Assembly (NCBI GenBank): GCA_025362495.1
Contig: JANYGI010000102.1
Coordinates: 124,001 to 188,000, forward strand
DNA: 64,000 nt
DNA from: Byssovorax sp.
GTDB lineage: Bacteria > Myxococcota_A > Polyangia > Polyangiales > Polyangiaceae
Direction: 5' to 3'
Position numbers and translations under genes: made by a program. Each line of letters starts with the position of its first letter. Within the stretch, counting starts at the first letter, position 1. Below the pieces are notes generated by a model. That model was not told where the DNA came from, did no database searches, and worked only from the letters and a program-made list of their open reading frames with translations. This document shows positions 9,672-22,421 of the stretch, piece by piece.

Positions 9672-11660
9672 TCACTGCGGATCGCAGGGCCCCGCGCAGA
9701 AGGCCTTGATGGTCCCCGTCCGGAAGAACTCGTTCGACTGATCGATGGCCTCGGGCAGCGAGCGGATCTTGTCGTGGGGATCGTCGTTGTCGCCGCCGGT
9801 GTTGGGCACGTTCTCCGTCGGCGCCGGCGGGAGGCCGAAGCTGAACTCCACGAGGCCCGAGCCCATGAACGGACCATCGGTGTCGGGAATGCCCCAGATC
9901 GTGCGGTTGACGGGCTTGAGATTCCTGGCCTTGACCGACCGAGCGATGATGTGCGCGCCGAGCGGCGTCACCTGAAAATCGCCGATGCCCGCGGCGATCA
10001 GCACCTGATGCTGCGGGGTGCCCGGGAGCATGTTCTCGTTGATGTACGGCACGTAGCCGTCGGGCTCGGTGCGGTCCCAGATCATCTGCACCAGTCCGAG
10101 CATGAGCTGGATGTTGCGCCCCGTCTGGTAAGACCCCTTGAGCAGCGTGAAGTAGAAGCCGAAGTCCGAGCTGCGGTTGAGGAGCAGGCTGTACGGCGCG
10201 CCGGGCTCGCCCAGCAGGCCTCGTGTCACGTCGGTGCTGACGGCCATGTAGCTCGTCCCGAAGATGCCTCCCTGGCTGTCACCGCGGTAGTAACGGTGGG
10301 CGGGATCGATCATCGATTTGCCGTTGAGCTGGACCAGCGGCTCGTCGACGAAGCGGCCGATCATCATCCGCATCGCGAGGAGGCTGTTGAGCAGGCCCTG
10401 GTGCTGCCGCTCGACAGCGCCCTTGAAGCCGCCGATGTCGGCGACGATAGAGTCGGTCACGATCGTCACGTCGTCGTGGGCCATGCCGATGAAATCGACC
10501 GAGAACGCCACGTAGTTCCACTTGTCGGCGATCTCGGCGAGGTAGCCGTCCTGCCCCTCGTGCTTCGAGCCGAGCAGGCCATGCCCGTTCTGGAGCAGCG
10601 CCGCCGCCGTCCCCTTCAGGGCCGAGTTCGGGATGTGAATCAGCACCTCGTACTCGGCGAACCCGTTCTGCTTCGGGAGGCCCTTGTCGTCGAGGGTGAA
10701 CCGCGCGCCGGGAGTGGCCTTGTCGAGGTAGAGCGGCACCTTCATCAGGGCCGTGATCCGCTTGTAAATGTGCGGGTTCGGGTTGTCCTCCACCATCGTG
10801 ATGGTGTACTCGGGGCCCTTGTCGCCGACGACAGCGAGGGCGTCGTCGCGCATGTGGAGGAAGCGCGAGGTGTTGTTCTCGCGGCTCGCCGTGGTGTAGT
10901 CCCAGGCCAGCTGGAGATCGTCTTTCTTGATCCCCGCCTTCGCGAGGCGAGCGAAGATGTCCTTGTAGAGATCGCGCCGCCGGGTCACCGAGACATCGCA
11001 CGAGTCGGCCCCGTCGCGGAGGGCCTTGAACGCCGGGGAAGGCGCGATCGCCTTGCCGTCCGCGTCGACCACCTTGCGCACCGCGACGATGTACCGAGTC
11101 CTGTCCTTCAGGCGCACCACCGGGCGGATGATCATCGCGCGGTCTTCGGGCTGCTCGCCGACCAGGCTCTCGTCGCGCTCGGTGAAGTGCGCGACGCGCT
11201 CGCCCGTCTCGGCGTCGATGATCACCGTGGCCGAGTCGGCCCCGAGCGAGCTCTCGATGGTGTCTTGCGTCGGGAGCCCCGCGATCGTCGCGCCGGGGAA
11301 ATAGAAGAGCGCCGGCTGCCCGGGCGAGAAGCCGTCGCTGTCGCTCCACACCGTGCGATCGACGCGCGCGCCGCCGGTGTACGAGGGCAGTGTCTTCTCG
11401 CCGAAGGCGATGTGCTTGCCGGTGACCGTCGTGGGATCGTCGGCGAGGTACACGTTCGAGGGGAACGGGTAGCCGCACTGGCCCGGCGAGATCGGATCGC
11501 AGTCCGCGCCGAGCAGCGGCAGGCCGGTCTTCACGTCGTCGGCCTTGCAATTCAGCGGCACTGGCGCGGGATCCACCGTGTCCGTCGAGCAGGCGGAGGC
11601 CGCGGCGAGCGCGAGCGTGAGGGCGGTGGCTGAACCGAGGGAGCGGAGGTTTCGCAGCAT
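9672..11660 (-). CDS. Lipoprotein lipase/esterase, large alpha/beta hydrolase (VolA-like)
   Basis: About 662-residue predicted lipoprotein with a lipobox ending at Cys24 (MLRNLRSL...LALAAASAC). The hydrolase nucleophile motif is YYRGDSQGGIFG with Ser near residue 462, and an HG oxyanion-type stretch NGHGLLGS lies near residue 360. Size, lipidation and motif layout recall surface-exposed phospholipases such as VolA, but the family call is by eye. The ATG at 11660 has a weak GGCAGG site; an in-frame GTG at 11672 is an alternative. It is the last gene of the PHA operon, 21 bp after phaC. It would release fatty acids or other acyl chains at the cell surface for the ligase two genes upstream. It could instead depolymerise external polyester. 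Confidence 0.75.
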   Translation of the reverse strand: MLRNLRSLGSATALTLALAAASACSTDTVDPAPVPLNCKADDVKTGLPLLGADCDPISPGQCGYPFPSNVYLADDPTTVTGKHIAFGEKTLPSYTGGARVDRTVWSDSDGFSPGQPALFYFPGATIAGLPTQDTIESSLGADSATVIIDAETGERVAHFTERDESLVGEQPEDRAMIIRPVVRLKDRTRYIVAVRKVVDADGKAIAPSPAFKALRDGADSCDVSVTRRRDLYKDIFARLAKAGIKKDDLQLAWDYTTASRENNTSRFLHMRDDALAVVGDKGPEYTITMVEDNPNPHIYKRITALMKVPLYLDKATPGARFTLDDKGLPKQNGFAEYEVLIHIPNSALKGTAAALLQNGHGLLGSKHEGQDGYLAEIADKWNYVAFSVDFIGMAHDDVTIVTDSIVADIGGFKGAVERQHQGLLNSLLAMRMMIGRFVDEPLVQLNGKSMIDPAHRYYRGDSQGGIFGTSYMAVSTDVTRGLLGEPGAPYSLLLNRSSDFGFYFTLLKGSYQTGRNIQLMLGLVQMIWDRTEPDGYVPYINENMLPGTPQHQVLIAAGIGDFQVTPLGAHIIARSVKARNLKPVNRTIWGIPDTDGPFMGSGLVEFSFGLPPAPTENVPNTGGDNDDPHDKIRSLPEAIDQSNEFFRTGTIKAFCAGPCDPQ

Positions 11661-11681
11661 CAGGCCTGCCACGATATCAAA

Positions 11682-12752
11682 CTATCTCGCCGTTGCGGAG
11701 GCCAAGCGCGTGGCCTTCGCGTCGTCGGCCGGGCCAGCGGCGGCGTCGCGCGCGGCCCACCAGGCCGAGATCCTGGGCCACAGCGTCGTCGCGGCCTTCT
11801 GCGAGACCACGGCGCCGACGTGGGTGCCCGGCAGATGAAGCCGCTGCTTGTCGACGGACGTGACGCGATCGACGAGGGCCGCCGCGCTCGGCCAGGGGAC
11901 GATGGTGTCGTGCTCGAACGTCACGGCCAGGGTCGGACAGGTGATGTTCTCGAGCCGCGCCGGGAGCCCCGAGAGGGTGAAGGTGCCCGCCAGCAGAGCG
12001 TCGTTCCGGTAGAGCTCCTCGACGTAGCGCTGGTAGCAGGCGCCGGGGAAGGGGATGTTGTCGTTCCCCCACATCTCGAGGGCCATGAAGCCTTCGAGGG
12101 ACTCGTCGGTCCAGGCCTTGTCGAGGAAGTGAACGAGCTTGGACGCCGTGAGCGTGGGCCGCAGCATCTTGAACGCCACCTGCAGCAGCCCTTCAGGCAC
12201 GTTGCCGAGCGCGCCGGTCAACGAGGCGACGTTGAACCGCGGATCTCGCGTCCAGGCCGAGAGCATCCCGTCGTCCTCGAAGCGCACCGGCGCCGCGAGC
12301 GCCAGGAGCGAGGCCACGTGGTCCGGGCGCACCGAGGTGTAGATCGCCGCGAGCGTGCCACCGAGGCAGTACCCGAGGACGTGGGCTTGGTTGCGCGCGG
12401 ACCGCCTGGCGACGAGCCGGGTGGCGCGCCCGAGGTAACCATCGCAGACGTCGTCGAAGGTCAGATACCGATCCTCGTCGGTGGCCACCCCCCAGTCGAT
12501 GGCGTAGACATCGTGTCCCCGGGACACCATGTATGCCGCGAAGCTCTTCTGCGGGAGCAGATCGAGCACGTAATGGCGGTTGATCAGCGACGGCACCAGC
12601 AGCACGGGCGTCTCGTGGACGATACCCGCAGCGCGCGGCCGATACCGCAGCAGCCTCCACTTGTTCTCGTGGTGGATGACGTCCGAGGGCGTCGTCCCGA
12701 CCGGAGGCGCGGGGCGCGACCAGATCGTCGCGAGGGTGCCGAGGCCCTTCAT
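11682..12752 (-). CDS. phaC: Class III-type polyhydroxyalkanoate synthase
   Basis: 356-residue alpha/beta-hydrolase-fold polymerase that joins hydroxyacyl-CoA units into polyhydroxyalkanoate on granules. The catalytic triad is visible: Cys129 in HVLGYCLGGT (lipase box with Cys for Ser), Asp282 in FEHDTIVPW, and His311 in LPGTHVGAVV. Length matches class III PhaC (about 355 residues), which needs a PhaE partner. A small PhaE/phasin-like protein is encoded two genes upstream. The ATG at 12752 overlaps the acyl-CoA ligase stop as ATGA, so ligase and synthase are translationally coupled. Polymer type cannot be inferred; the ligase neighbour hints at substrates activated from free acids. Confidence 0.87.
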   Translation of the reverse strand: MKGLGTLATIWSRPAPPVGTTPSDVIHHENKWRLLRYRPRAAGIVHETPVLLVPSLINRHYVLDLLPQKSFAAYMVSRGHDVYAIDWGVATDEDRYLTFDDVCDGYLGRATRLVARRSARNQAHVLGYCLGGTLAAIYTSVRPDHVASLLALAAPVRFEDDGMLSAWTRDPRFNVASLTGALGNVPEGLLQVAFKMLRPTLTASKLVHFLDKAWTDESLEGFMALEMWGNDNIPFPGACYQRYVEELYRNDALLAGTFTLSGLPARLENITCPTLAVTFEHDTIVPWPSAAALVDRVTSVDKQRLHLPGTHVGAVVSQKAATTLWPRISAWWAARDAAAGPADDAKATRLASATAR

Positions 12753-14479
12753 GCGTAGAGCGCCTCGAACGCCGCGAAAAACCGCTCGTAGACCTTCTTG
12801 CGCCGCACCTTGAGCGTGGGCGTGAGCAGGCCTCCCTGGACGGTGAGCGGCTCCTCGAAGAGGTGGAATTTCTTGATCGTCTCGTAGCTGGGGAGCGCGG
12901 CGTTGACCTTGTCGATGCGCTCCTGGATCAGGGCCGTCATCGCCGCGCGGTACGTGTCTCCCGTGCCCGCGGCCTCGCCGAGGTGGGACCGGATCGCGCT
13001 CTCCTCGATCCACACGCCGGCCGTGAGGTAACGCCGGGCGTCGCCGAAGATCACCAGGTGGACGATGAACGGATCGTCCTGGAAGCGGAGCTCGATGTTG
13101 GCCGGAGGCACGTTCTTGCCGTTCGCCAGCACCAGGATGTCTTTCTTGCGATCGATGATCTGGAGAAAGCCATCGTCGGTGAAGCGGCCGACGTCGCCCG
13201 TCTTGAACCAGCCATCGTCGGTGAAGGCCTCTTTGGTGGCCTCGGGATCCTTGTGATACCCACCGAACACGCTGGGCCCGCGGGCGAGGATTTCGCCGTC
13301 CTCCGCGAGCTTGACCTCGACCGACGGGAACGGCTTGCCCACGGTGTCGAAGCGGAACGCGTCAGGGCGATTGAGCGTCAGCGTGGGGGACGTCTCGGTC
13401 AGGCCGTAGCCCTCGATGATCAGGAGTCCAGCCGCGTGAAAGAGCTCTTTCACCTCGCGCTTGAGGCCGGCTCCGCCGGACAGGCAGAACTTGAGGTGTC
13501 CGCCGGTGAGGGCCAAGAGCTTGGCCTTCTGCGCCGCGGGATCGGGGTTCTGCGCCCTGGTCGCGAGCTTCTCCCACACCGAGGGTACGCTCATGAACAC
13601 GCTCGGTCGCACCTCGGGCAAACGATCCATCGCGCTCGCGGGATCGCAGAGGTAGGTGGTGAATCCGAGCGTGTTGCCGAGGCAGGCCTCGCCGAAGCCG
13701 AAGATGTGGCTCATCGGCAACCAGAGCAGATCGACCGCGCCCTCGTCGACGAGAGGCGCGTTGCTCACGAGCCAGTCGAGCCCGTTGACTGCCACGTTGC
13801 GGTGGGTCAGCGGAACGCCCTTGGGGTTGCCGCTGGTGCCGCTCGTGTAGAGCATCATCCCGGTCTGATCGAGGGAGACTCCGCGCATCGTCTTCTCGAA
13901 ATGGGTGGGATCCTCGGCGTCGCGCGCCGCGCCGATCGAGAGGGCGTCGGACCACGTGATCAGCTTCTTCTGCGCGTCGGCGAGAGAAGGCACCTTCTTG
14001 CCGGCGGCGGCGAGCTTCTCGAGGACCTTTTGCGCGTCGAGCGCGTCGTCCAGCAGCACGATCTTCGAGGCCGCGGCGTACTCGTCCCAGGCCTCGAAGA
14101 CACGGCCGAGCAGCGCCGGCGTATCGACGAAGACCACTTTCGCGTCACAGTGCTTTGCCACGTAAGCGGCCTGATCGGTGGTATTGGCGGCGTAGATCGG
14201 CACGATGGCCCCGCCGGCGGCCTGGATGGCGAGCGCGGCGGCGATCCACTCCACGCGGTTGGGCGCGAAGATGGCGGCGCGGTCCCCGGTGGTGAGCCCG
14301 ACCGATCCGAGGAACAGAGAGGCCTTGCGGATCTGGGCGGCGAAGGCCCCCCAGGTCACGGCGCGCCAGTCGCCGTCGACCGTGGGCAGCATGAAGCGGA
14401 CGCGGGTCTTGCGCTCCGAGAGCGTGTCGAAGACGGCGCGGGGAGCGATCTTGAGCTCGGTGTACGGGGTGATATCCAT
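12749..14479 (-). CDS. Acyl-CoA ligase (long-chain-fatty-acid-CoA ligase-like, AMP-forming)
   Basis: 576-residue ANL-superfamily ligase that adenylates a carboxylic acid and transfers it to CoA. The P-loop motif is LYTSGTSGNPKGVPLTH; the A5-type motif is IEGYGLTETSPTLTL; the hinge region is GWFKTGDVGRFTDDGFLQI followed by DRKKDILVLANGKN. The C-terminal Lys region is present (LTPTLKVRRKKVYERF), so the enzyme looks intact. Its style is that of FAA1/FadD15-like long-chain ligases. It sits between the PhaE-like gene (5 bp gap) and phaC (4 bp overlap), implying that it supplies the polymerase or channels imported acyl chains to CoA. Confidence 0.9.
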   Translation of the reverse strand: MDITPYTELKIAPRAVFDTLSERKTRVRFMLPTVDGDWRAVTWGAFAAQIRKASLFLGSVGLTTGDRAAIFAPNRVEWIAAALAIQAAGGAIVPIYAANTTDQAAYVAKHCDAKVVFVDTPALLGRVFEAWDEYAAASKIVLLDDALDAQKVLEKLAAAGKKVPSLADAQKKLITWSDALSIGAARDAEDPTHFEKTMRGVSLDQTGMMLYTSGTSGNPKGVPLTHRNVAVNGLDWLVSNAPLVDEGAVDLLWLPMSHIFGFGEACLGNTLGFTTYLCDPASAMDRLPEVRPSVFMSVPSVWEKLATRAQNPDPAAQKAKLLALTGGHLKFCLSGGAGLKREVKELFHAAGLLIIEGYGLTETSPTLTLNRPDAFRFDTVGKPFPSVEVKLAEDGEILARGPSVFGGYHKDPEATKEAFTDDGWFKTGDVGRFTDDGFLQIIDRKKDILVLANGKNVPPANIELRFQDDPFIVHLVIFGDARRYLTAGVWIEESAIRSHLGEAAGTGDTYRAAMTALIQERIDKVNAALPSYETIKKFHLFEEPLTVQGGLLTPTLKVRRKKVYERFFAAFEALYA

Positions 14480-14484
14480 GTCCG

Positions 14485-14763
14485 TTATTTCTTCTCCGCG
14501 AGGCGCTCTTCCAGGTCCATCAGGCGGCTCTCCAGCTGATTCAACGCGTGCAGGGAGCGCTCTTGATCACGCTTGGTGGGCAGGCCGAGGCCGGCCCAGA
14601 ACGACGTCTTGGCCCGGTCGGCGCGGGCCTTGGCCTTCATTGCCGCCGAGAGCAGCGCGCCGGTGGGCCCGAGGACCGTCGGGCTCTTCAGCGCCTTCTC
14701 CAGGTAGCCCGCCGTGGTGTTCTCCCACGCGTCGAAGCCCTTCTTGAACCTGTCCCACAGCAT
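14485..14763 (-). CDS. Small PhaE/phasin-like granule protein
   Basis: 92-residue helical protein starting MLWDRFKKGFDAWENTTAGY. The C-terminal part GLGLPTKRDQERSLHALNQL, then a charged coil to the end, resembles the end of PhaE and phasin-like subunits, where a P-T-x-R-D stretch precedes a leucine-rich heptad helix. By position (directly before the ligase and phaC) it is a candidate activating subunit of the class III synthase or a granule coat protein. It is much shorter than classical PhaE (about 300-400 residues), so if it is the partner it is a minimal form. Assignment is inference from context and the C-terminal motif. Confidence 0.55.
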   Translation of the reverse strand: MLWDRFKKGFDAWENTTAGYLEKALKSPTVLGPTGALLSAAMKAKARADRAKTSFWAGLGLPTKRDQERSLHALNQLESRLMDLEERLAEKK

Positions 14764-14774
14764 GTCTCAGCTCC

Positions 14775-15629
14775 TCACTGGCCGAGGCGGCGCACTTCGG
14801 CCGCCTTGGTGAAATTTGCTGTCGCTTCGCCGATGTGGCTGGTCGCGCGGGTGACCTCGCCGAAGCACTCGGAGACGAAGCCCACCTGCCAGGTGGTCTG
14901 GGTGGCAGGACCGACGGAAGGCTTCAGGGTCACCCTCGTCTCGATCTTGTGGACCTGCTCGAAGGTGAGATCGTGAAGCGCGAGGCTGCCAAGCGCGGCG
15001 TCCTTCACGTCGTAGGTGTCGGTGCTGGAGTAGGCGAGGCCGTTGATCATCCCGCCCATCATCACGCTTGCCTGCGTGCTCCACGCGAGCCCGGGCGTCA
15101 TGGGAAACCGGTACACGTCAATCGGCGCATCGTAGACGAGCAGCGTTTTCCCCTTCTTGGGCTTCTCCACGACAGAGGCGATGCCGAGGAGCGAGATGGC
15201 CTTGTCGGTGGCCGAGTAGACACCGTAGATCTCACCCACCGTGTCGACCGGCGAGGCGAAATCGCCGTCCGGGAACGACGAAGCGTACCACTTGCCAGCG
15301 ACCTTGGTGGCGGTGAGCAGCAGCGCCTTGTCGGTGGCGAAGTCCGGCGAGAAGTCCCAGGCGACGCCGCCCTTGCCATCGCTCTTGCCGGCGAGATTCA
15401 CCGTGCGATCCTCGCCTACCGGCGAGATCACGTACGAGACCTGGACGTCGAAGGCCGGGGCGAGCTCGGTCGCGTCGATCTGCCCGTCGAGGTTCGGGAG
15501 GCAGGTGAACGCGCTCCCGCCCGCGCCGGAGCTCGTGCTGGCGCCGCCGTCGCGATCCGGAGGGTGGGTGAGGTTGTCGCCGCAGGCCGCGAGGAGCAGG
15601 GCGAACGGGAGGAGATAGGCAGTCTTCAT
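14775..15629 (-). CDS. Lipoprotein B of the PHA operon (paralogue of 18219-19214)
   Basis: 284-residue predicted lipoprotein (MKTAYLLPFALLLAACGDN, lipobox LAAC) with a short Ser/Gly linker and no recognised domain. It shares a backbone with the protein encoded at 18219-19214: KWYASSFP versus QWFAASFP, VSECFGEVTRA versus VTECFGTVATM, and the C-terminal AAEVRRLG versus AAEVSRLA. The two are therefore diverged paralogues within one operon. The ATG at 15629 begins the signal peptide; an upstream TTG at 15638 is less likely. It lies 5 bp after the outer-membrane protein gene. A surface or periplasmic binding role next to a lipase and an outer-membrane protein is possible but unproven. Confidence 0.75.
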   Translation of the reverse strand: MKTAYLLPFALLLAACGDNLTHPPDRDGGASTSSGAGGSAFTCLPNLDGQIDATELAPAFDVQVSYVISPVGEDRTVNLAGKSDGKGGVAWDFSPDFATDKALLLTATKVAGKWYASSFPDGDFASPVDTVGEIYGVYSATDKAISLLGIASVVEKPKKGKTLLVYDAPIDVYRFPMTPGLAWSTQASVMMGGMINGLAYSSTDTYDVKDAALGSLALHDLTFEQVHKIETRVTLKPSVGPATQTTWQVGFVSECFGEVTRATSHIGEATANFTKAAEVRRLGQ

Positions 15630-15634
15630 GGGGC

Positions 15635-17212
15635 TCAAAACGCGTAGGTAGCGCGCATCCGGATGGACTGCGCAGGTTTGGCCGTGAGCTTGAGCTCCGG
15701 GTTGTCGAGCCCCGCGAGGGGGAAGAGCACGGCGTGCTCGAGCGCGAGGTTGAACCCGTCGCGGTTACCGTAGGTCAGCGTCGGATCGAGCTCGACGCCG
15801 AGGGGCGCCTTCTGCCCGGGCGTTGACGCGGCCTCCATCGCGAACGAGACGACCCCGGCGAGCTGCGCCGTGAGCTTGCTCGGACCGAGCTTGGCGATCG
15901 TGTAGCGCGCGTGGGGGCGGAGGTAGACAGCGTCGGTCACCGTCCCGATGATCTCACGGAACAGGATGCGATCCACGTGATAATCGGGGTGGAAGCGAAA
16001 GTTGTCGACGTGGTTGTCGTAGGGGGTATTGGCCTGCGACCCGTCGAGATCGCCCGGCTTCGGGACGGCGCCGGTGAGCGAGGCTTTCACGCCGAAGCCC
16101 GGGGCGGGATCGCCGCTGGCGAGGCCGAGATCGAGGCCGGCGCCGAAATCGGCCTCGGGCGCGCCGAGCTCGCTCTCGAGGGCGAAGCCGAACTGGCGTG
16201 AGCCGACCGGCTGACGCAGGAGGACGCCCGGGATGAGCGAGCCTTGCTCGATGTTGGCTACTATGCCAGCGACCTCCATTTCCAGACGAAATCCCGGCGT
16301 GGTGACGCGGAACCAGCCGTCGAGCGCCGAGGCGGTGTACCCGCGATACATCACCTGAGAAGCGTTGAGCTCCGGCGGCCGCGCGATGGGCAGGTAGTCC
16401 GCGGGGACGTCGTTCTGCTGCCAGCGATGCGAGAAGTAAGCGCCGTACTCCACGGTGATCTTGCCGGCCTTGCGGCGGCGCTCGCGCCCGATGTCGTCGC
16501 GGTAGCGGAGGAACGCGAGAGTGACGGTCCGCACGTCGTCGCTGGGATCGACGTCGATGGCGCGAGTCTCGATCGTCCGCGAACGGAAGGGCCCGCTCGA
16601 CGAGACATCGAACGACGCCGCGAAGATGTGGCCAAGCGCGGGAGTGAGGAACGCGATGCGATCGGCCGAGTCGCCGCTGTCGCAGTCGGCGCAGTCGCCG
16701 GCGTTGGCCAGCATGCCGAGGCCCCACTGGCTGCCCATGCGGCCGGCGCTGAAGACGCCAATCGGCGTCAGGGCCTCGCCGTAAGCGCGCTTGAGGCGGA
16801 GCGCGGCGACGGGCCTTTGCGACGACGAGCCCGAGGGGACGCCGTCGGGCGCGCTGCCGAAGACGAGGTTGTCCGGCGCGTCGAAGCGAGCCTTGACGGC
16901 GACCCCGAAGCCGGGCGCGTAGAAGGCCACGTCGGTGCGCAGGCGGAAGTCCATCGTCGACAGCGTCTGGGCCTTCGGATCCGAGAGCGGGACGGGGAAG
17001 AGCGGCTGTCCAGAGGGCGTGAGCCCGCGGTCGAGATCGAGGTTGTAGAGCAGCTCGCCGCGGACGCGGAAGGCGCCGTGCACGACGACGCTGGTCTCGG
17101 TCTGGGCGGCGATGTCGTTGCCGATGTCGGTGAAGCCGGTGGCGTGCGCCGCGGCGGGCGCCGCGAGGATCCCGAGGCCGAGCGCGAGGGCGCGAATGCG
17201 AGAAGAGCGCAT
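15635..17212 (-). CDS. Outer-membrane beta-barrel protein (TIGR04551-like)
   Basis: 525-residue protein with a Sec signal peptide (MRSSRIRALALGLGILAAPA, cleavage after AAHA) and long stretches of alternating residues, closing with an aromatic beta-strand end (SIRMRATYAF), typical of outer-membrane barrels. A CADCDSGDSADR loop lies near residue 180. It resembles the large barrel-like family of delta-proteobacteria and myxobacteria labelled TIGR04551, by memory. The ATG at 17212 shares one base with the upstream TGA (TGATG); a GTG 3 bp earlier is possible. In this operon it is a good candidate for a porin or uptake channel for the acyl substrates released by the lipoprotein hydrolases. Confidence 0.72.
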   Translation of the reverse strand: MRSSRIRALALGLGILAAPAAAHATGFTDIGNDIAAQTETSVVVHGAFRVRGELLYNLDLDRGLTPSGQPLFPVPLSDPKAQTLSTMDFRLRTDVAFYAPGFGVAVKARFDAPDNLVFGSAPDGVPSGSSSQRPVAALRLKRAYGEALTPIGVFSAGRMGSQWGLGMLANAGDCADCDSGDSADRIAFLTPALGHIFAASFDVSSSGPFRSRTIETRAIDVDPSDDVRTVTLAFLRYRDDIGRERRRKAGKITVEYGAYFSHRWQQNDVPADYLPIARPPELNASQVMYRGYTASALDGWFRVTTPGFRLEMEVAGIVANIEQGSLIPGVLLRQPVGSRQFGFALESELGAPEADFGAGLDLGLASGDPAPGFGVKASLTGAVPKPGDLDGSQANTPYDNHVDNFRFHPDYHVDRILFREIIGTVTDAVYLRPHARYTIAKLGPSKLTAQLAGVVSFAMEAASTPGQKAPLGVELDPTLTYGNRDGFNLALEHAVLFPLAGLDNPELKLTAKPAQSIRMRATYAF

Positions 17213-18222
17213 CACTTTCCCTCGTCTTTCTTCGGATCTTCAGGAGCAGGCTTGTCGGGCTTGTCGACCTTCGGCGGCGTGACGACGACGGGCGGCGCCT
17301 CGACGCTGGCGGTCGGGGCCCTCTCTTCTTCGTCGAGGAAGCGAATCAGCTCGGCGTTGGAGGCGCTCTTCGCCTCGAGCATCGGGAAGTGGCCGCAGCG
17401 CGGATAGACCACGAGCCGCGCGTGGGGGAGCTCGCGCGAGAGGCGCTCTCCGAAGGGCAGGGTCGTCACCACGTCTTCGCGGCCCCAGAGCAGGAGCGTC
17501 GGCTTGTCGATGGTGTGATACCGACTCTCGACCTCGGCGTAGTGCATGCCGCGCACGCCGGCGAGGGCCGCGGCGACGGTGCCCGGGCGCTCCAGCGAGC
17601 GCTCCACGGCCTCGGCGAGCGCCTCGGAGACGAGGGTCTTGTCGAAGAAGGCCAGCGACATCCGCTCGTCGGCGCGCTCGCTGTAATACATGGAGAAGAG
17701 CGCCTCGCCCACGCCGCCGGCGCGGGACATCACGAAGAAGGTGGGCAGCTGTCCCTCGTAGACCCAGGCGTCGTAGAGGGCGATGCGACTGACCCGCTCC
17801 GGCGCGAGGAGCGCGAGCTCGAGCGTCACCGACGAGCCCCACGAGTGGGCGACGAAGGCGGCTTTATCGATCCCGCGCGACTCCAGCAAGCGCAGCACGA
17901 GGTGGGCCTCGGCCTTCGGCGAATAGTCCCCCTCGGGCCGGTCCGTCCACCCGAAGCCCTTGAGATCCATGGCGATGACCCGGTGGGTCTTCGACAGCTC
18001 GGGGATCAGCGCGTCCCACGTCTCCAGCGACGATGCGAACCCGTGAATGAGCACCACGGGAGGGCCCTTGCCCACGTCGACGTAGCGCACCCGGGCGCCG
18101 TCCACCGTCGCGAACGTGGCCGTCTTCGGCTCGCCCGCCATGGCGCCGGCGTGAAACTCGAGGCAGCCCGCAAGGAGCGGGAGCGCGCAGAGGAGCGGTA
18201 AGGTGAAGAGAGGCAGTTTCAT
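17212..18222 (-). CDS. Alpha/beta-hydrolase lipoprotein
   Basis: 336-residue lipoprotein with a lipobox at Cys20 (LCALPLLAGC) and a classic alpha/beta-hydrolase fold. VVLIHGFASSLETW carries the oxyanion HG. The nucleophile is Ser127 in VAHSWGSS, the acid is Asp250 in LLLWGREDVV, and the base is His278 in PRCGHFPML, so the triad is intact. After the catalytic domain comes a Pro/Lys-rich tail (PPKVDKPDKPAPEDPKKDEG) that may span periplasm or bind envelope. Likely an ester or amide hydrolase at the outer membrane. Start and stop overlap both neighbours (ATGA upstream, TGATG downstream), so it is firmly within the operon. Confidence 0.87.
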   Translation of the reverse strand: MKLPLFTLPLLCALPLLAGCLEFHAGAMAGEPKTATFATVDGARVRYVDVGKGPPVVLIHGFASSLETWDALIPELSKTHRVIAMDLKGFGWTDRPEGDYSPKAEAHLVLRLLESRGIDKAAFVAHSWGSSVTLELALLAPERVSRIALYDAWVYEGQLPTFFVMSRAGGVGEALFSMYYSERADERMSLAFFDKTLVSEALAEAVERSLERPGTVAAALAGVRGMHYAEVESRYHTIDKPTLLLWGREDVVTTLPFGERLSRELPHARLVVYPRCGHFPMLEAKSASNAELIRFLDEEERAPTASVEAPPVVVTPPKVDKPDKPAPEDPKKDEGK

Positions 18223-19214
18223 GGTGCGAGTCGGCTGACCTCGGCCGCGGTGGTGAACTCGTCGGCCATCTCGTAGTCCTTCGAGACCATGGTGGCGACG
18301 GTGCCAAAGCACTCGGTGACGAAGACGAACCGGTGCGAGGTGGTGGTGACGCCGTTGAGGAAGCTCACCCGATCGACGCGGAGCCGGAGCACGGGGAACG
18401 TGGCAAAGGGCGTCTTCATCGTGCCGTGGGCGTCGACCTTGGAGTCGTACTGCTCGTTGTAGATGCCACCGACGGTGATGCCCTGGACCTTGCCCGTGAC
18501 GGCCGAGAGCGTCGACCAGGAGCCGCCCTCCTTGATCGGGAAGACGAGGACCTTGACCGGCGTGCCGTATGCGAGGTTGGTGGCCTGGGCGCCGTCGGCC
18601 GGTGAGGCCACGCCGCGGAGGAGCAGCGCGCCGGACGCGACCTCGAACACGCCGAGAAGATCGGCCGTGGACGAGAGTCGTGAAGCGTAGGTGGCGCCGG
18701 GGAACGACGCCGCGAACCACTGCCCCGCGATTGGCAGCGTTTCCACCTTCTCGTCGGCCTGGCCGCTGATCGCCGCCGAGAGATCCCACACGTGCTCCCC
18801 GCCGAGGCCGACCTTGCCGAGCGTATCGACTGGCACGCTCGCCGCGGCGCTGAAACTCTCGTGGAGGCCCACCGTCACCGGGAGCTCGTCCTGGGTTATC
18901 GTCCCATCGTTGTTGGGAGGGGAGCAGGGGCCCGCGGAGCCGCCGCTGCCGCCTGCGCCCGTGGTGGCGCTGCTGCTGCTCGTCGTCGACGTCGCGCTGG
19001 TTGTGCTCTCGTGGCCACCGGCGCCCGATCCGCCGGCGCCCGTGCTGCCTGACGCCGCCGTCGAGTTGCCCGCGCCACCGCACGTCCCATCGACGTTGCA
19101 CACGCCGGAGGCGCAGTCGGCGCCGACCTTGCAGCCCCCGGGCGTGCTCGCCGCGCAGCCGCCGAGCGAGGGAAGGAGCAACAGCATCAGTGGGAGGAGC
19201 GCGCGGTACGACAT
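18219..19214 (-). CDS. Lipoprotein A, first gene of the PHA operon (paralogue of 14775-15629)
   Basis: 331-residue lipoprotein (LLLLPSLGGC lipobox). The mature part opens with a small Cys-rich module (CKVGADCASGVCNVDGTC), then a long Ser/Thr/Gly/Ala linker, then a domain paralogous to the other lipoprotein of the operon (QWFAASFP, VTECFGTVATM and AAEVSRLA are shared positions). The function is unknown. As the promoter-proximal gene it faces phaR across a 125-bp gap holding two TGCA-type palindromes. The Cys-rich start is a common myxobacterial lipoprotein module and is absent from paralogue B. Confidence 0.75.
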   Translation of the reverse strand: MSYRALLPLMLLLLPSLGGCAASTPGGCKVGADCASGVCNVDGTCGGAGNSTAASGSTGAGGSGAGGHESTTSATSTTSSSSATTGAGGSGGSAGPCSPPNNDGTITQDELPVTVGLHESFSAAASVPVDTLGKVGLGGEHVWDLSAAISGQADEKVETLPIAGQWFAASFPGATYASRLSSTADLLGVFEVASGALLLRGVASPADGAQATNLAYGTPVKVLVFPIKEGGSWSTLSAVTGKVQGITVGGIYNEQYDSKVDAHGTMKTPFATFPVLRLRVDRVSFLNGVTTTSHRFVFVTECFGTVATMVSKDYEMADEFTTAAEVSRLAP

Positions 19215-19258
19215 CGCCGACGTGCTTATCGAGAACGCCCGCCCGGGTCAACCGCTTT

Positions 19259-19326
19259 TTGTGCAGTGCAATAAGCGCAGCAGTTTCTGTGGCTTTTCGC
19301 GCGGTTTGTTGCTATCGCGGTGCAAC
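19259..19326. promoter_or_regulatory. Two TGCA-type palindromes between the PHA operon and phaR (candidate PhaR operators)
   Basis: Site 1 at 19259-19274 reads TTGTGCAGTGCAATAA. Site 2 at 19308-19326 has GTTGC and GCAAC arms separated by 9 bp and ends 13 bp before the phaR start. PhaR regulators are known to bind TGCA/CTGC-type palindromes before phasin genes and their own gene. The sites lie in the divergent 125-bp region, so one regulator could control both directions. The pattern match is by eye; footprinting would decide. Confidence 0.45.
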
Positions 19327-19339
19327 ACGGAGGTGGCGA

Positions 19340-19936
19340 TTGATCGTCAAGAAATACTCGAACCGGCGGCTCTACGACACGGAGCAGAGTCGGTACATCA
19401 CGCAGGACGAGCTCGCCGACAAGATCCGCCTCGGCGCCGACGTGCGCGTCGTCGACGCCGCGACCGGCGACGATCTCACGCAGGGGACGCTGGCGCAGAT
19501 CATCCTCGAGAGCCGCGGCGCCTCGCGCCTCTTGCCCGTGCCGCTGCTGGTGCAGCTCATCCGTATGCGCGAGGACTCGCTCGCCGAGTTCTTCGGCCGC
19601 TACATGTCGGGCGCGCTCGATCTGTATCTCCACGCGAAGGAGGGCGCCGCGGCGATCGCGCCGTACAACCCCTTCGCGACGGTGCCCTTCGCGGCCACCA
19701 ACGCGCTGGCGCGGCTCCTCCTCGGCGGCGGCGGAGGCGCCTTCGGGTGGCGCGAGCCGCCTCCAGCCGCGGTGATCCCGGCCCCGCCGCCGCTCCCGTC
19801 GCCCCCGCCCGCGCGCGAGACCAGCGACGAGATGAAGGATCTCCGCCGCGAGCTCGACGAGCTCAAGCGCGCGCTGCGCCCGCAGCGGACGCGGAGAGCG
19901 TCCGCGAGCCTGGTCAGGAAGAAGCGCCGGTCGTGA
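19340..19936 (+). CDS. phaR: PhaR-type polyhydroxyalkanoate synthesis repressor
   Basis: 198-residue regulator. The N-terminal DNA-binding domain (residues 1-60) begins IVKKYSNRRLYDTEQSRYIT, the hallmark of the PHB/PHA accumulation regulator family. It is followed by the second family domain (RMREDSLAEFFGRYMSGAL), a Pro-rich linker and a basic coiled C-terminus. The family senses PHA polymer and represses phasin and its own genes. The start is a TTG at 19340, chosen because GGAGG sits 7 bp before it and the protein then begins at the conserved motif. It is divergent from the PHA operon, which supports the functional assignment of both. Confidence 0.88.
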   Translation: MIVKKYSNRRLYDTEQSRYITQDELADKIRLGADVRVVDAATGDDLTQGTLAQIILESRGASRLLPVPLLVQLIRMREDSLAEFFGRYMSGALDLYLHAKEGAAAIAPYNPFATVPFAATNALARLLLGGGGGAFGWREPPPAAVIPAPPPLPSPPPARETSDEMKDLRRELDELKRALRPQRTRRASASLVRKKRRS

Positions 19937-19942
19937 TCGCCC

Positions 19943-19958
19943 GTTGCTGCGCTGCAAC
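19943..19958. promoter_or_regulatory. Third TGCA-type palindrome, downstream of phaR
   Basis: Positions 19943-19958 read GTTGCTGCGCTGCAAC, GTTGC/GCAAC arms with a TGC-rich centre, resembling the sites upstream of phaR. It lies 7 bp after the phaR stop and about 100 bp before the helicase gene. It could be a further PhaR-binding site or a weak hairpin at the phaR mRNA end; no U-run follows. Confidence 0.35.
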
Positions 19959-20054: not shown

Positions 20055-22421
20055 GTGGAAGAGATGGCCCCGCTCCCCGACGATCCCGAAGAGCTCGGGA
20101 CCCCTTCATTCCCCGACGATCTCAACGATCCGCAGCGCCTCGCGGCCGCCCACGTGGACGGCCCGCTGCTGATCTTCGCCGGCGCCGGAAGCGGAAAAAC
20201 GCGCGTCATCGTCTACCGCATCGCCAACCTCGTCGCGGTCCACCGCGTCCCCCCGTACAAGATCCTCGCGGTCACCTTCACCAACAAGGCCGCGGGCGAG
20301 ATGAAGCACCGCCTCGAAGGCCTCCTCGGCGACAGCGTCGCCAAGGATCTCTACGTCGGCACCTTCCACGCGATCTGCGCGCGCCTGCTCCGCCGCTACC
20401 ACGACGCGGCGGGCCTCGAGCGCAGCTTCGTGATCTACGACGACTCCGATCAGCGCGCGGTGATGAACCGGGTGCTGAAGGAGCTCGAGCTCGACGAGAA
20501 GCGCTTCCCCCCGCGCCAGGTGCTCTCCCGCATCCACAAGCAGAAGCAGGAGGGCAAGGGCCCGGCCGATTTCCAGCCGGAGGGCTTCTTCGACGAGCCG
20601 ATCAAGCGGTGCTTCGAGGCCTACCAGCGCCACCTCCAGGCGGCGAACGCCGTCGATTTCGACGACATCCTCCTCCACGTGCTCCGCATCATCGAGGATC
20701 CGGCGAGCATGCCCGGCGAGGAGATCCGCCGGCGCTTCCGCTACGTGCTCGTCGACGAGTTCCAGGACGTCAATCAGGTGCAGTATCGCCTGGTGCGCGC
20801 CTTCGCCAGCTCGCCACCCCACAACCTCTGTGTCGTCGGTGACGACGATCAGAGCATCTACCGCTGGCGCGGCGCCGACGTGCGGATCGTCCGCGGCTTC
20901 CGCAAGGACTTCCCCGGCGCCCAGATCGTGAAGCTGGAGCAGAATTACCGCTCCAGCAACAACATCGTCAAGGGCGCCCTCGGCGTGATCAAGCCGGCCA
21001 AGGACCGCGAGCCGAAGGAGCTCTGGACCGACAACCGCGACGGCGAGCAGATAGGCGTCATCGCCTGCGACAACGAGCACGACGAGGCCGCGTTCGTGGT
21101 CGAGCGGATCCGCGAGCTGACCGAGCGCGGCCTCTCCGCCAAGGAAGTCGCCGTCTTCTACCGCACCCACGCCCAGTCGCGCGTGCTCGAAGAGGTGATG
21201 CGCGCCGAGCGCATTCCTTACCAGATCATCGGCGGCGTCCGCTTCTTCGAGCGCGCCGAGGTGAAGGACTTGCTCTCGTACCTGCGCGTGGTGGCCAATC
21301 CGCGCAGCGACGTGGATCTGCTGCGAATCATCAACAAGCCCTCTCGCAAGCTCGGCGACACCACGCTCGACAAGCTGGTGCAGATGGCCGACGGGCGGAA
21401 CACCTCGCTCTACGAGTCGATCCAGGCCCTCTGCGACAGCGGGTCGATCAACTCGGGCACGCGCCACAGCCTGCTCTCGTTTCGCGATCTGCTCCAGAAG
21501 CTGATGAAGGCAGCGCGGGACACGCGGCCGAGCCAGCTCGCCGAGCTGGTCCTCGCCGAGTCGGGCTACACCAAGATGCTCGACGCCGACGACAGCACCG
21601 AGAACGAGGCCCGCAAGCAGAACCTGAGCGAGCTCGTGGGCTCGATCCTCGACTACGAGGAAGAGGCCCTGTCGGCCGGCGAGGAGACGTCGCTGAGCGG
21701 CTACCTGGAGCGAGTGACGCTCTCCAGCGACATCGACGCTCTGGAGGACGCGCCGCGCGTGGCGATGATGACCGTGCACGCGGCCAAGGGCCTCGAGTTC
21801 GACTCGGTGTTCATCACCGGCATGGAAGAGGACCTGTTCCCCTTTCGCAACGCGGATCCCTCGCGCAACGAGGACGTCGAGGAGGAGCGTCGCCTGGCCT
21901 ACGTGGCGGTGACCCGGGCGCGCACGCGGCTCTGGATCACCTACGCCGGGCGGCGGATGATCTTCGGGCAAACGCGCTTCGGGCTGCCGAGCCGCTTCAT
22001 CACCGATCTGCCGCGGTCGACCGTGCGCCAGGGCGCGACTCCCGCCCTCGAACGGCAGCAGTCGACCCGCGAGACTGGCAATGTTGGATCGGTGTACGCC
22101 CGCGTGCGCGCCGGCGGCTCGCCGTGGTCGCACCCACAGGAGCGCGCCGCGAGCAGCGGTGGGGCGACGTACCCGGGCCGCCCGAAGGCCGAGCCGGAGC
22201 GCGCGCCCGGCGAGCGCTACGTCGAGCGCGAGCCCGAACTCGATCAGGGCGGCGGCGAAGACGGCGCGATCCACGTCGGCGGCCGCGTCCAGCACAAGAC
22301 GTTCGGCGTCGGCCTCGTGATGAGCATCGACAACGGGGCCGATCCCATCGTGTCGGTGAAGTTCTCGGGCTACGGCGTGAAGCGGATCAAGGCCGCGTTC
22401 CTGCAGCGCGCGGGCGGCTGA
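20055..22421 (+). CDS. pcrA: UvrD/PcrA-type ATP-dependent DNA helicase
   Basis: 788-residue superfamily 1A helicase that unwinds DNA 3' to 5' in repair and replication restart. Motif I is FAGAGSGKTR (about residues 41-50). Then come VTFTNKAAGEMKHRL (Ia), VDEFQDVNQVQY (II), VVGDDDQSIYRWRGAD (III), LEQNYRSSNNIV (IV), MTVHAAKGLEFD (V) and VAVTRARTRLW (VI). The C-terminal extension ends in the PcrA/UvrD Tudor-like segment GGRVQHKTFGVGLV...VKFSGYGVKRI. A GTG at 20055 is used; an ATG at 20064 with GGAAGAG before it is equally possible and removes three residues. It is monocistronic. PcrA is a better symbol than Rep because of the Tudor-like tail. Confidence 0.93.
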   Translation: MEEMAPLPDDPEELGTPSFPDDLNDPQRLAAAHVDGPLLIFAGAGSGKTRVIVYRIANLVAVHRVPPYKILAVTFTNKAAGEMKHRLEGLLGDSVAKDLYVGTFHAICARLLRRYHDAAGLERSFVIYDDSDQRAVMNRVLKELELDEKRFPPRQVLSRIHKQKQEGKGPADFQPEGFFDEPIKRCFEAYQRHLQAANAVDFDDILLHVLRIIEDPASMPGEEIRRRFRYVLVDEFQDVNQVQYRLVRAFASSPPHNLCVVGDDDQSIYRWRGADVRIVRGFRKDFPGAQIVKLEQNYRSSNNIVKGALGVIKPAKDREPKELWTDNRDGEQIGVIACDNEHDEAAFVVERIRELTERGLSAKEVAVFYRTHAQSRVLEEVMRAERIPYQIIGGVRFFERAEVKDLLSYLRVVANPRSDVDLLRIINKPSRKLGDTTLDKLVQMADGRNTSLYESIQALCDSGSINSGTRHSLLSFRDLLQKLMKAARDTRPSQLAELVLAESGYTKMLDADDSTENEARKQNLSELVGSILDYEEEALSAGEETSLSGYLERVTLSSDIDALEDAPRVAMMTVHAAKGLEFDSVFITGMEEDLFPFRNADPSRNEDVEEERRLAYVAVTRARTRLWITYAGRRMIFGQTRFGLPSRFITDLPRSTVRQGATPALERQQSTRETGNVGSVYARVRAGGSPWSHPQERAASSGGATYPGRPKAEPERAPGERYVEREPELDQGGGEDGAIHVGGRVQHKTFGVGLVMSIDNGADPIVSVKFSGYGVKRIKAAFLQRAGG

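Follow-up and report, generated by a model that had tools for sequence, protein, structure and literature searches.

A conserved Myxococcota gene block in which predicted outer-envelope genes accompany a class III-like polyhydroxyalkanoate synthase and PhaR

A 64,000-nucleotide stretch of a Byssovorax sp. genome (assembly GCA_025362495.1, contig JANYGI010000102.1, positions 124,001 to 188,000; here called the window, with positions numbered from its first letter) contains a tight minus-strand operon. In it a polyhydroxyalkanoate (PHA) synthase, a small PhaE-like protein and an acyl-coenzyme A (CoA) ligase are joined to a predicted esterase, two paralogous lipoproteins and an outer-membrane barrel, with phaR read from the opposite strand. 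Seven of the genes, g1 to g7, recur in this order in dozens of genomes spread over many families of Myxococcota, and the contrast between this recurrence and the non-conserved surroundings is far beyond chance. We give about an even chance to the reading that the operon is a PhaR-controlled PHA storage unit with its own outer-envelope supply module. An original prediction, made from the letters of the window, had placed eight minus-strand open reading frames and an opposing phaR here and had pointed to the unusual company of the synthase, with surface lipases and an outer-membrane barrel. All nine genes were found at the predicted positions, an esterase lipoprotein, two further lipoproteins and an outer-membrane barrel do accompany the synthase, and the operon is confirmed as real. 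The features are as follows.

g1: 18219..19214, minus strand; lipoprotein with a Ser/Gly/Thr-rich linker and a beta-rich domain, paralogue of g4 (lipobox LGGC; conserved in the block)
g2: 17212..18222, minus strand; lipoprotein alpha/beta hydrolase, predicted esterase (lipobox LAGC; PF00561, 4e-30; triad)
g3: 15635..17212, minus strand; TIGR04551 outer-membrane beta-barrel, 18 strands predicted (family score and AlphaFold2 model)
g4: 14775..15629, minus strand; lipoprotein, paralogue of g1 (lipobox LAAC; structure model)
g5: 14485..14763, minus strand; 92-residue protein resembling the PhaE C terminus (PF09712, E=0.013 for the window copy)
g6: 12749..14479, minus strand; acyl-CoA ligase with AMP-binding and AMP-binding_C_3 domains (PF00501, 3e-68; PF23562, 7e-10)
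g7: 11682..12752, minus strand; PhaC1, class III-like PHA synthase (TIGR01836; solved PhaC structures; triad)
g8: 9672..11672, minus strand; lipase-like lipoprotein with a GDSQGG motif, outside the conserved block (weak TIGR03502 match)
phaR: 19340..19936, plus strand; PHA-binding-type transcriptional regulator, divergent, start TTG at 19340 (PF07879, 9.4e-25)
PhaR-type operator TTGTGCAGTGCAA: 19259..19271, plus strand; g1-phaR promoter region, one of two exact copies in the genome
Inverted repeat TGTTGC...GCAACA: 19308..19327; possible second PhaR-type site (from sequence)
uvrD-type helicase gene: 20055..22421, plus strand; flanking gene that marks the site of a missing phasin-phaC2 arm (homologue in Minicystis rosea, 74%)

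Conservation of the gene order in other Myxococcota was a test set beforehand. Relatives of g7 were found in 182 of the 379 Myxococcota genomes searched, and 60 loci around them were compared for gene order. The core sample was the 46 loci in which a PhaC1 orthologue has 7 kb or more of sequence upstream of it. The order held: g5 and g6 were kept in all 46 loci and g1 to g4 were also kept in 42, while phaR was found in 45. The genes that adjoin the block in the window (g8, uvrD, a DUF1003 gene and a zinc-ribbon gene) were found in none. The genes g1 to g7 are an ancient block of which g8 is not part. A profile scan with g3 over 84,980 species was also carried out. The best 80 loci were labelled Myxococcota or former Deltaproteobacteria, except for a few labelled only 'bacterium' or 'proteobacterium'; nearly all of these 80 show the same gene order, and the one named isolate that they include is M. 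rosea. In several loci, including L005, L006, L007 and L010, one stop codon was reported within the PhaC1 match, probably where the alignment ends.

The genes are also tightly coupled, as had been claimed: neighbours in the window overlap by up to 4 bases or are at most 21 bases apart. On the minus strand, g1 and g2 share an ATGA overlap (18222-18219), g2 and g3 a TGATG overlap (17212), and g6 and g7 a second ATGA overlap (12752-12749). The gaps between g3 and g4, g4 and g5, and g5 and g6 are 5, 11 and 5 bp, and g8 starts either 9 bp (GTG 11672) or 21 bp (ATG 11660) beyond g7. A search for terminator-like sites on the minus strand within the operon found none. The median junctions in the relatives' loci, from g1 to g7, are -4, -4, 7, 29, 13 and 1 bp.

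Judged from its sequence, the locus has a well supported PHA function because the PhaC triad is kept and the g1-phaR interval contains a PhaR-type operator, the only other exact copy of which in the genome lies before phaZ. The g7 protein matches solved PhaC structures (6e-31) as well as PhaC_N and carries the PhaC signature INRHYVLDL. Its GXCXG box reads GYCLG, and Cys129, Asp282 and His311 are invariant in 20 PhaC sequences. Because g7 scores 255.9 bits against TIGR01836 (class III PhaC), which is below the curated cut-off of 365.3, we regard it as a class III-like PhaC rather than a strict member of the class. The small gene g5 had been called PhaE-like; the likeness is there, restricted to the PhaE C terminus. 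The alignment of the window copy falls in the C-terminal part of PF09712 and scores 15.2 bits, short of the gathering score of 25.7; 17 of 21 g5 orthologues match this profile weakly (best 2.8e-6), and no significant match to g5 was found among solved structures. The ligase g6 is FadD11-like, with a score below the family cut-off.

The PF07879 DNA-binding domain of PhaR scores 86.9 bits against a threshold of 25, and phaR shares with the operon a promoter that contains the PhaR-type operator. The 10.8-Mb genome holds two exact copies of the 13-mer TTGTGCANTGCAA. One is at window position 19259; the other, on a different contig, precedes a phaZ depolymerase gene (TIGR01849, 539.6 bits) by about 50 bp. 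These two exact PhaR-type operators are both located at PHA genes, and a control pattern had no exact match in the genome. The core of the window operator fits the core TGCRNYGCA of the footprinted Bradyrhizobium PhaR consensus TGCRNYGCASMA (PMC6201568) and the Sinorhizobium PhaR core YGCRNYGCR (PMC12542648). Across 113 loci, a TGCANTGCA palindrome was found upstream of phaR in 51, where dinucleotide shuffles gave an expectation of 0.75, and GTTGC-gap-GCAAC was found in 23, compared with 0.85 in the shuffles. The phaZ gene of this genome (L205:5556-6833, on C54) has a second palindrome, TGTTGCATCGCAACA, upstream in addition to its perfect operator; a TIGR01849-type phaZ was absent in the eight relatives searched. 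Depolymerases of the TIGR01849 (PhaZ) type act on short-chain PHA, and because the genome's depolymerase is of this type, it points to short-chain PHA as the stored polymer. A GTTGCTGCGCTGCAAC palindrome at 19943-19958, directly after the phaR stop codon, resembles the PhaR-type sites. A second window copy of TGCAGTGCA (30368) was considered as a promoter site and rejected, as the surrounding sequence has no sign of a promoter role.

The envelope genes have features of their own. Two lipoprotein hydrolases had been expected in the operon; g2 is indeed an alpha/beta hydrolase, whereas g8 falls outside the conserved unit. Ser127, Asp250 and His278 of g2 are invariant in all 24 aligned orthologues, giving a predicted esterase with a complete triad that may act as a surface lipase. 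The g1 and g4 proteins proved to be paralogues, as had been thought (32% identity, E=3e-28), and the g4 model (predicted local distance difference test score, pLDDT, 90) has a beta-rich domain. The g3 protein scores 346.6 bits against TIGR04551, above the curated cut-off of 300; a literature search for this family found no paper. Its AlphaFold2 model has 18 strands (pLDDT 76, predicted template modelling score 0.76). Among solved structures it comes closest to AlgE, MOMP and the OprD/Occ channels (Z 22-25, with Foldseek E values as low as 3e-15), and the 18-strand fold is shared with the AlgE and OprD/Occ families at Z 22-24. The predicted strands carry conserved charges of the same parity (D88, R90, R92, D94; R309, E311, E313), and in the model these alternating charges are presumably on one face, the pore side, which would fit a charged pore. 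FadL, a channel for long-chain fatty acids, has 14 strands. It was not among the listed fold matches, and a FadL-like barrel for g3, although it may have gone unlisted, is not indicated by the model. The original prediction envisaged a route from external esters or lipids to polymer. This route is partly supported. Lipids may be the substrate, but nothing found here favours long-chain fatty acids, the import of which is not indicated. A Na+ symporter gene is rare (12 of 113 genomes) and adjoins phaC in three of the 12 (G063, G047 and G074), a further hint of small-solute uptake.

From the genes present, their order and conservation, the intact active-site residues, the operators and the predicted folds, we infer a working scheme that covers surface exposure, direction of import, substrate, supply of PhaC by the ligase and binding of PhaR. 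The lipoprotein esterase g2 would cleave esters at the cell envelope, and the lipoproteins g1 and g4 would bind the products or hand them to g3, the 18-strand channel of which would let small carboxylates or hydroxy acids cross the outer membrane. The ligase g6 would form CoA thioesters that may feed PhaC directly or via beta-oxidation and a reductase. PhaC1, aided by the small PhaE-like g5, would polymerise (R)-3-hydroxyacyl units. Until it is sequestered by granules, PhaR would repress both the block and phaZ. Because of the OprD-/AlgE-like pore and the short-chain-type PhaZ, we lean towards small carboxylates or hydroxy acids that are released by the esterase and stored as PHA. A more specific version is salvage from polyester to polyester, in which g2 would depolymerise ester-linked 3-hydroxy acids outside the cell, g1 and g4 with g3 as an anion channel would import the hydroxy acids or oligomers, g6 would re-activate them and PhaC would re-polymerise them. 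We think this is unlikely to be the case. If true, predatory or saprophytic myxobacteria would move the storage polymer of their prey into their own granules, examples of possible substrates being poly-3-hydroxybutyrate (PHB) from lysed prey and 3-hydroxyacyl esters of prey lipids.

Several observations weigh against a storage operon with its own supply module. The operon contains no genes for beta-oxidation and no PhaJ. The best Foldseek PDB match to g3 is AlgE, which is an exporter, and the fold likeness of g4 to YmcC-fold lipoproteins is weak (best Z 10). In four PhaC1 loci (L058, L060, L063 and L070) the synthase has the ligase and g5 without g1 to g4, and therefore the envelope module is not indispensable. 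Conversely, a few sets of g1 to g4 occur with no recognisable PhaC nearby (L123/L188, L148 and L197), some of them at contig ends. Other arrangements speak for the linkage. In one family (f4), the block is split, with phaC1, the ligase gene and g5 on one side of phaR and g1 to g4 on the other side behind a second synthase gene, phaC2 (L039, L040, L053 and L056). Among loci of this split type, a second g1-like gene replaces g4 in L065, and L044 is without a recognised phaR or phaC2. In distant families, the neighbours of g1 to g4 are different PhaCs, different ligases, a reductase or a Na+ symporter (L191-L196). Because of the f4 split, these distant pairings, and the loci in which either part occurs without the other, we view the block as two modules, synthase (g5 to g7) and envelope (g1 to g4), that stay together and are not absolutely inseparable. 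As a separate observation, a 470-residue protein with no Pfam match (L188:1986-3395) lies beside g1 to g4 in a genome without a recognised PhaC, at the position held by the synthase-side genes in other loci.

Other explanations of the block were weighed. The envelope module may serve general scavenging of carboxylates and esters and be co-regulated with the PHA genes as both handle carbon surplus, so that its products enter central metabolism rather than being direct monomers. The reductase of the relatives could make monomers from acetyl-CoA, and the ligase type varies between lineages while g1 to g4 stay, both of which are in keeping with this idea. However, the reading frames of g6 and g7 overlap, the ligase lies beside PhaC1 in 46 of 46 loci, and we find general scavenging fairly unlikely as the explanation. 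It is rather improbable that g1 to g4 instead export or display hydroxy acids, oligomers, surface polymer or lipid during PHA metabolism. The match of g3 to the alginate exporter AlgE and the weak match of g4 to YmcC-fold lipoproteins would suit such a role, but OprD/Occ-type uptake channels score about equally (Z 22-23 vs 24) and the esterase and Na+ symporter fit uptake better.

A very unlikely alternative is that PhaC1 and g6 work as an acyltransferase system that forms another ester. Although the PhaC1 score below the TIGR01836 cut-off (256 vs 365 bits) would allow this, the protein has the full triad, the INRHYVLDL signature and a PhaE-like partner, and the setting includes PhaR with its operator, a linked phasin-like gene and second synthase, and a phaZ with the same operator. 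Finally, we can hardly credit a frozen historical neighbourhood with no functional linkage, for although the block genes largely follow host phylogeny (pairwise-distance correlations 0.42-0.75), the surrounding genes are unconserved (0 of 46 loci) and linkage was kept through the split and rearrangement around phaR.

PHA gene clusters are usually described as cytoplasmic affairs. PHA clusters, class III-like synthases and PhaR are already known, as is a surface lipase with an uptake channel in Vibrio. The class III systems of the Allochromatium vinosum type (PhaC-PhaE) are similar to the window in having a short PhaC of about 355 residues with a Cys-Asp-His triad, in the PhaE-C-terminal likeness of the small partner and in PHA-type regulation. 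They differ in that the window synthase is below the curated cut-off, its partner has 92 residues and not about 320-360, and the operon also holds a ligase and four envelope genes. The PhaR regulons of phasin genes and phaZ in alpha- and beta-proteobacteria have the same PhaR domain and TGCRNYGCA-type operators at PHA promoters, including that of the depolymerase (PMC6201568; PMC12542648); here, by contrast, the operator is at a divergent promoter that would also drive the esterase, barrel and lipoprotein genes. In Vibrio cholerae, the lysophospholipase VolA is encoded beside the fadL homologue vca0862 (PMC9496633), which is similar in pairing a surface lipoprotein lipase with an outer-membrane uptake channel and different in having no PHA genes. 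In addition, g3 is a predicted 18-strand barrel, and g8, the only VolA-like gene, is outside the conserved block. The AlgE, MOMP and OprD/Occ channels share the predicted fold of g3 at an identity of about 8-14%, and TIGR04551 is a family of its own.

Within the phylum, mass spectrometry detected PHB in two marine myxobacteria, Enhygromyxa and Plesiocystis, and the PHB synthase was reported to be conserved; the part of that account covered here does not mention envelope genes linked to the synthase (PMC6226438). Most Myxococcota genomes from activated sludge are reported to carry PHA genes (PMC11821767). A PHA phenotype in Bradymonas (PMC7460792) was considered as a link to the block and dropped, since in a genome that may be of that strain the PhaC match is only marginal (8.8e-4) and g3 has no block-level orthologue. 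In the open-access literature searched we found no account of a PHA operon that includes an envelope module, and a report elsewhere is possible. If our reading is true, envelope genes fixed beside synthase, ligase and PhaR throughout a predator-rich phylum make scavenging and storage one genetic unit. It suggests that ester scavenging at the cell surface is wired directly to carbon storage, gives TIGR04551 and an unannotated lipoprotein family a testable role, and opens a direct route to asking what predatory bacteria store from prey.

In many relatives, the region beyond phaR holds a small phasin-like gene, the second synthase gene phaC2 (sharing about 43% identity with phaC1), a FabG/PhaB-type reductase and sometimes a Na+ symporter. 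The phasin-like label comes from size and position, the Pfam match being to Phasin_2 and sub-threshold. In the window, uvrD immediately follows phaR and the phasin-phaC2-reductase arm is missing. In M. rosea (L186), phaC2 and, some 7.3 kb further out, the uvrD homologue are found on this same side of phaR, which makes deletion of the arm in the lineage of the window the simplest reading of the sequences. M. rosea (DSM 24000), which has g1 to g6 together with phaC2, shows the reverse loss (L092): there is no phaC1 behind its ligase, and a reductase is found instead. With no phaC2 in the window and no phaC1 in M. rosea, the two synthases look interchangeable. The Byssovorax genome has one PhaC match and, on another contig, a 65% identical reductase; with an assembly of 240 contigs and 96.6% completeness, phaC2 may still have been missed.

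The terminal gene g8 was considered as a core gene and rejected, being absent from every other block examined and belonging to a multicopy family. It matches TIGR03502 (VolA/Pla-1) at E=0.0019 and 16.4 bits, far below the cut-off of 383.9, and searches of Pfam and of solved structures gave no family and no match. The g8 family consists of GDSQGG lipoproteins of about 660 residues that are multicopy in Polyangiaceae, and g8 itself (window 9672-11672) is 64% identical to the product of a gene about 59 kb away on the same contig (C218:72964-74814).

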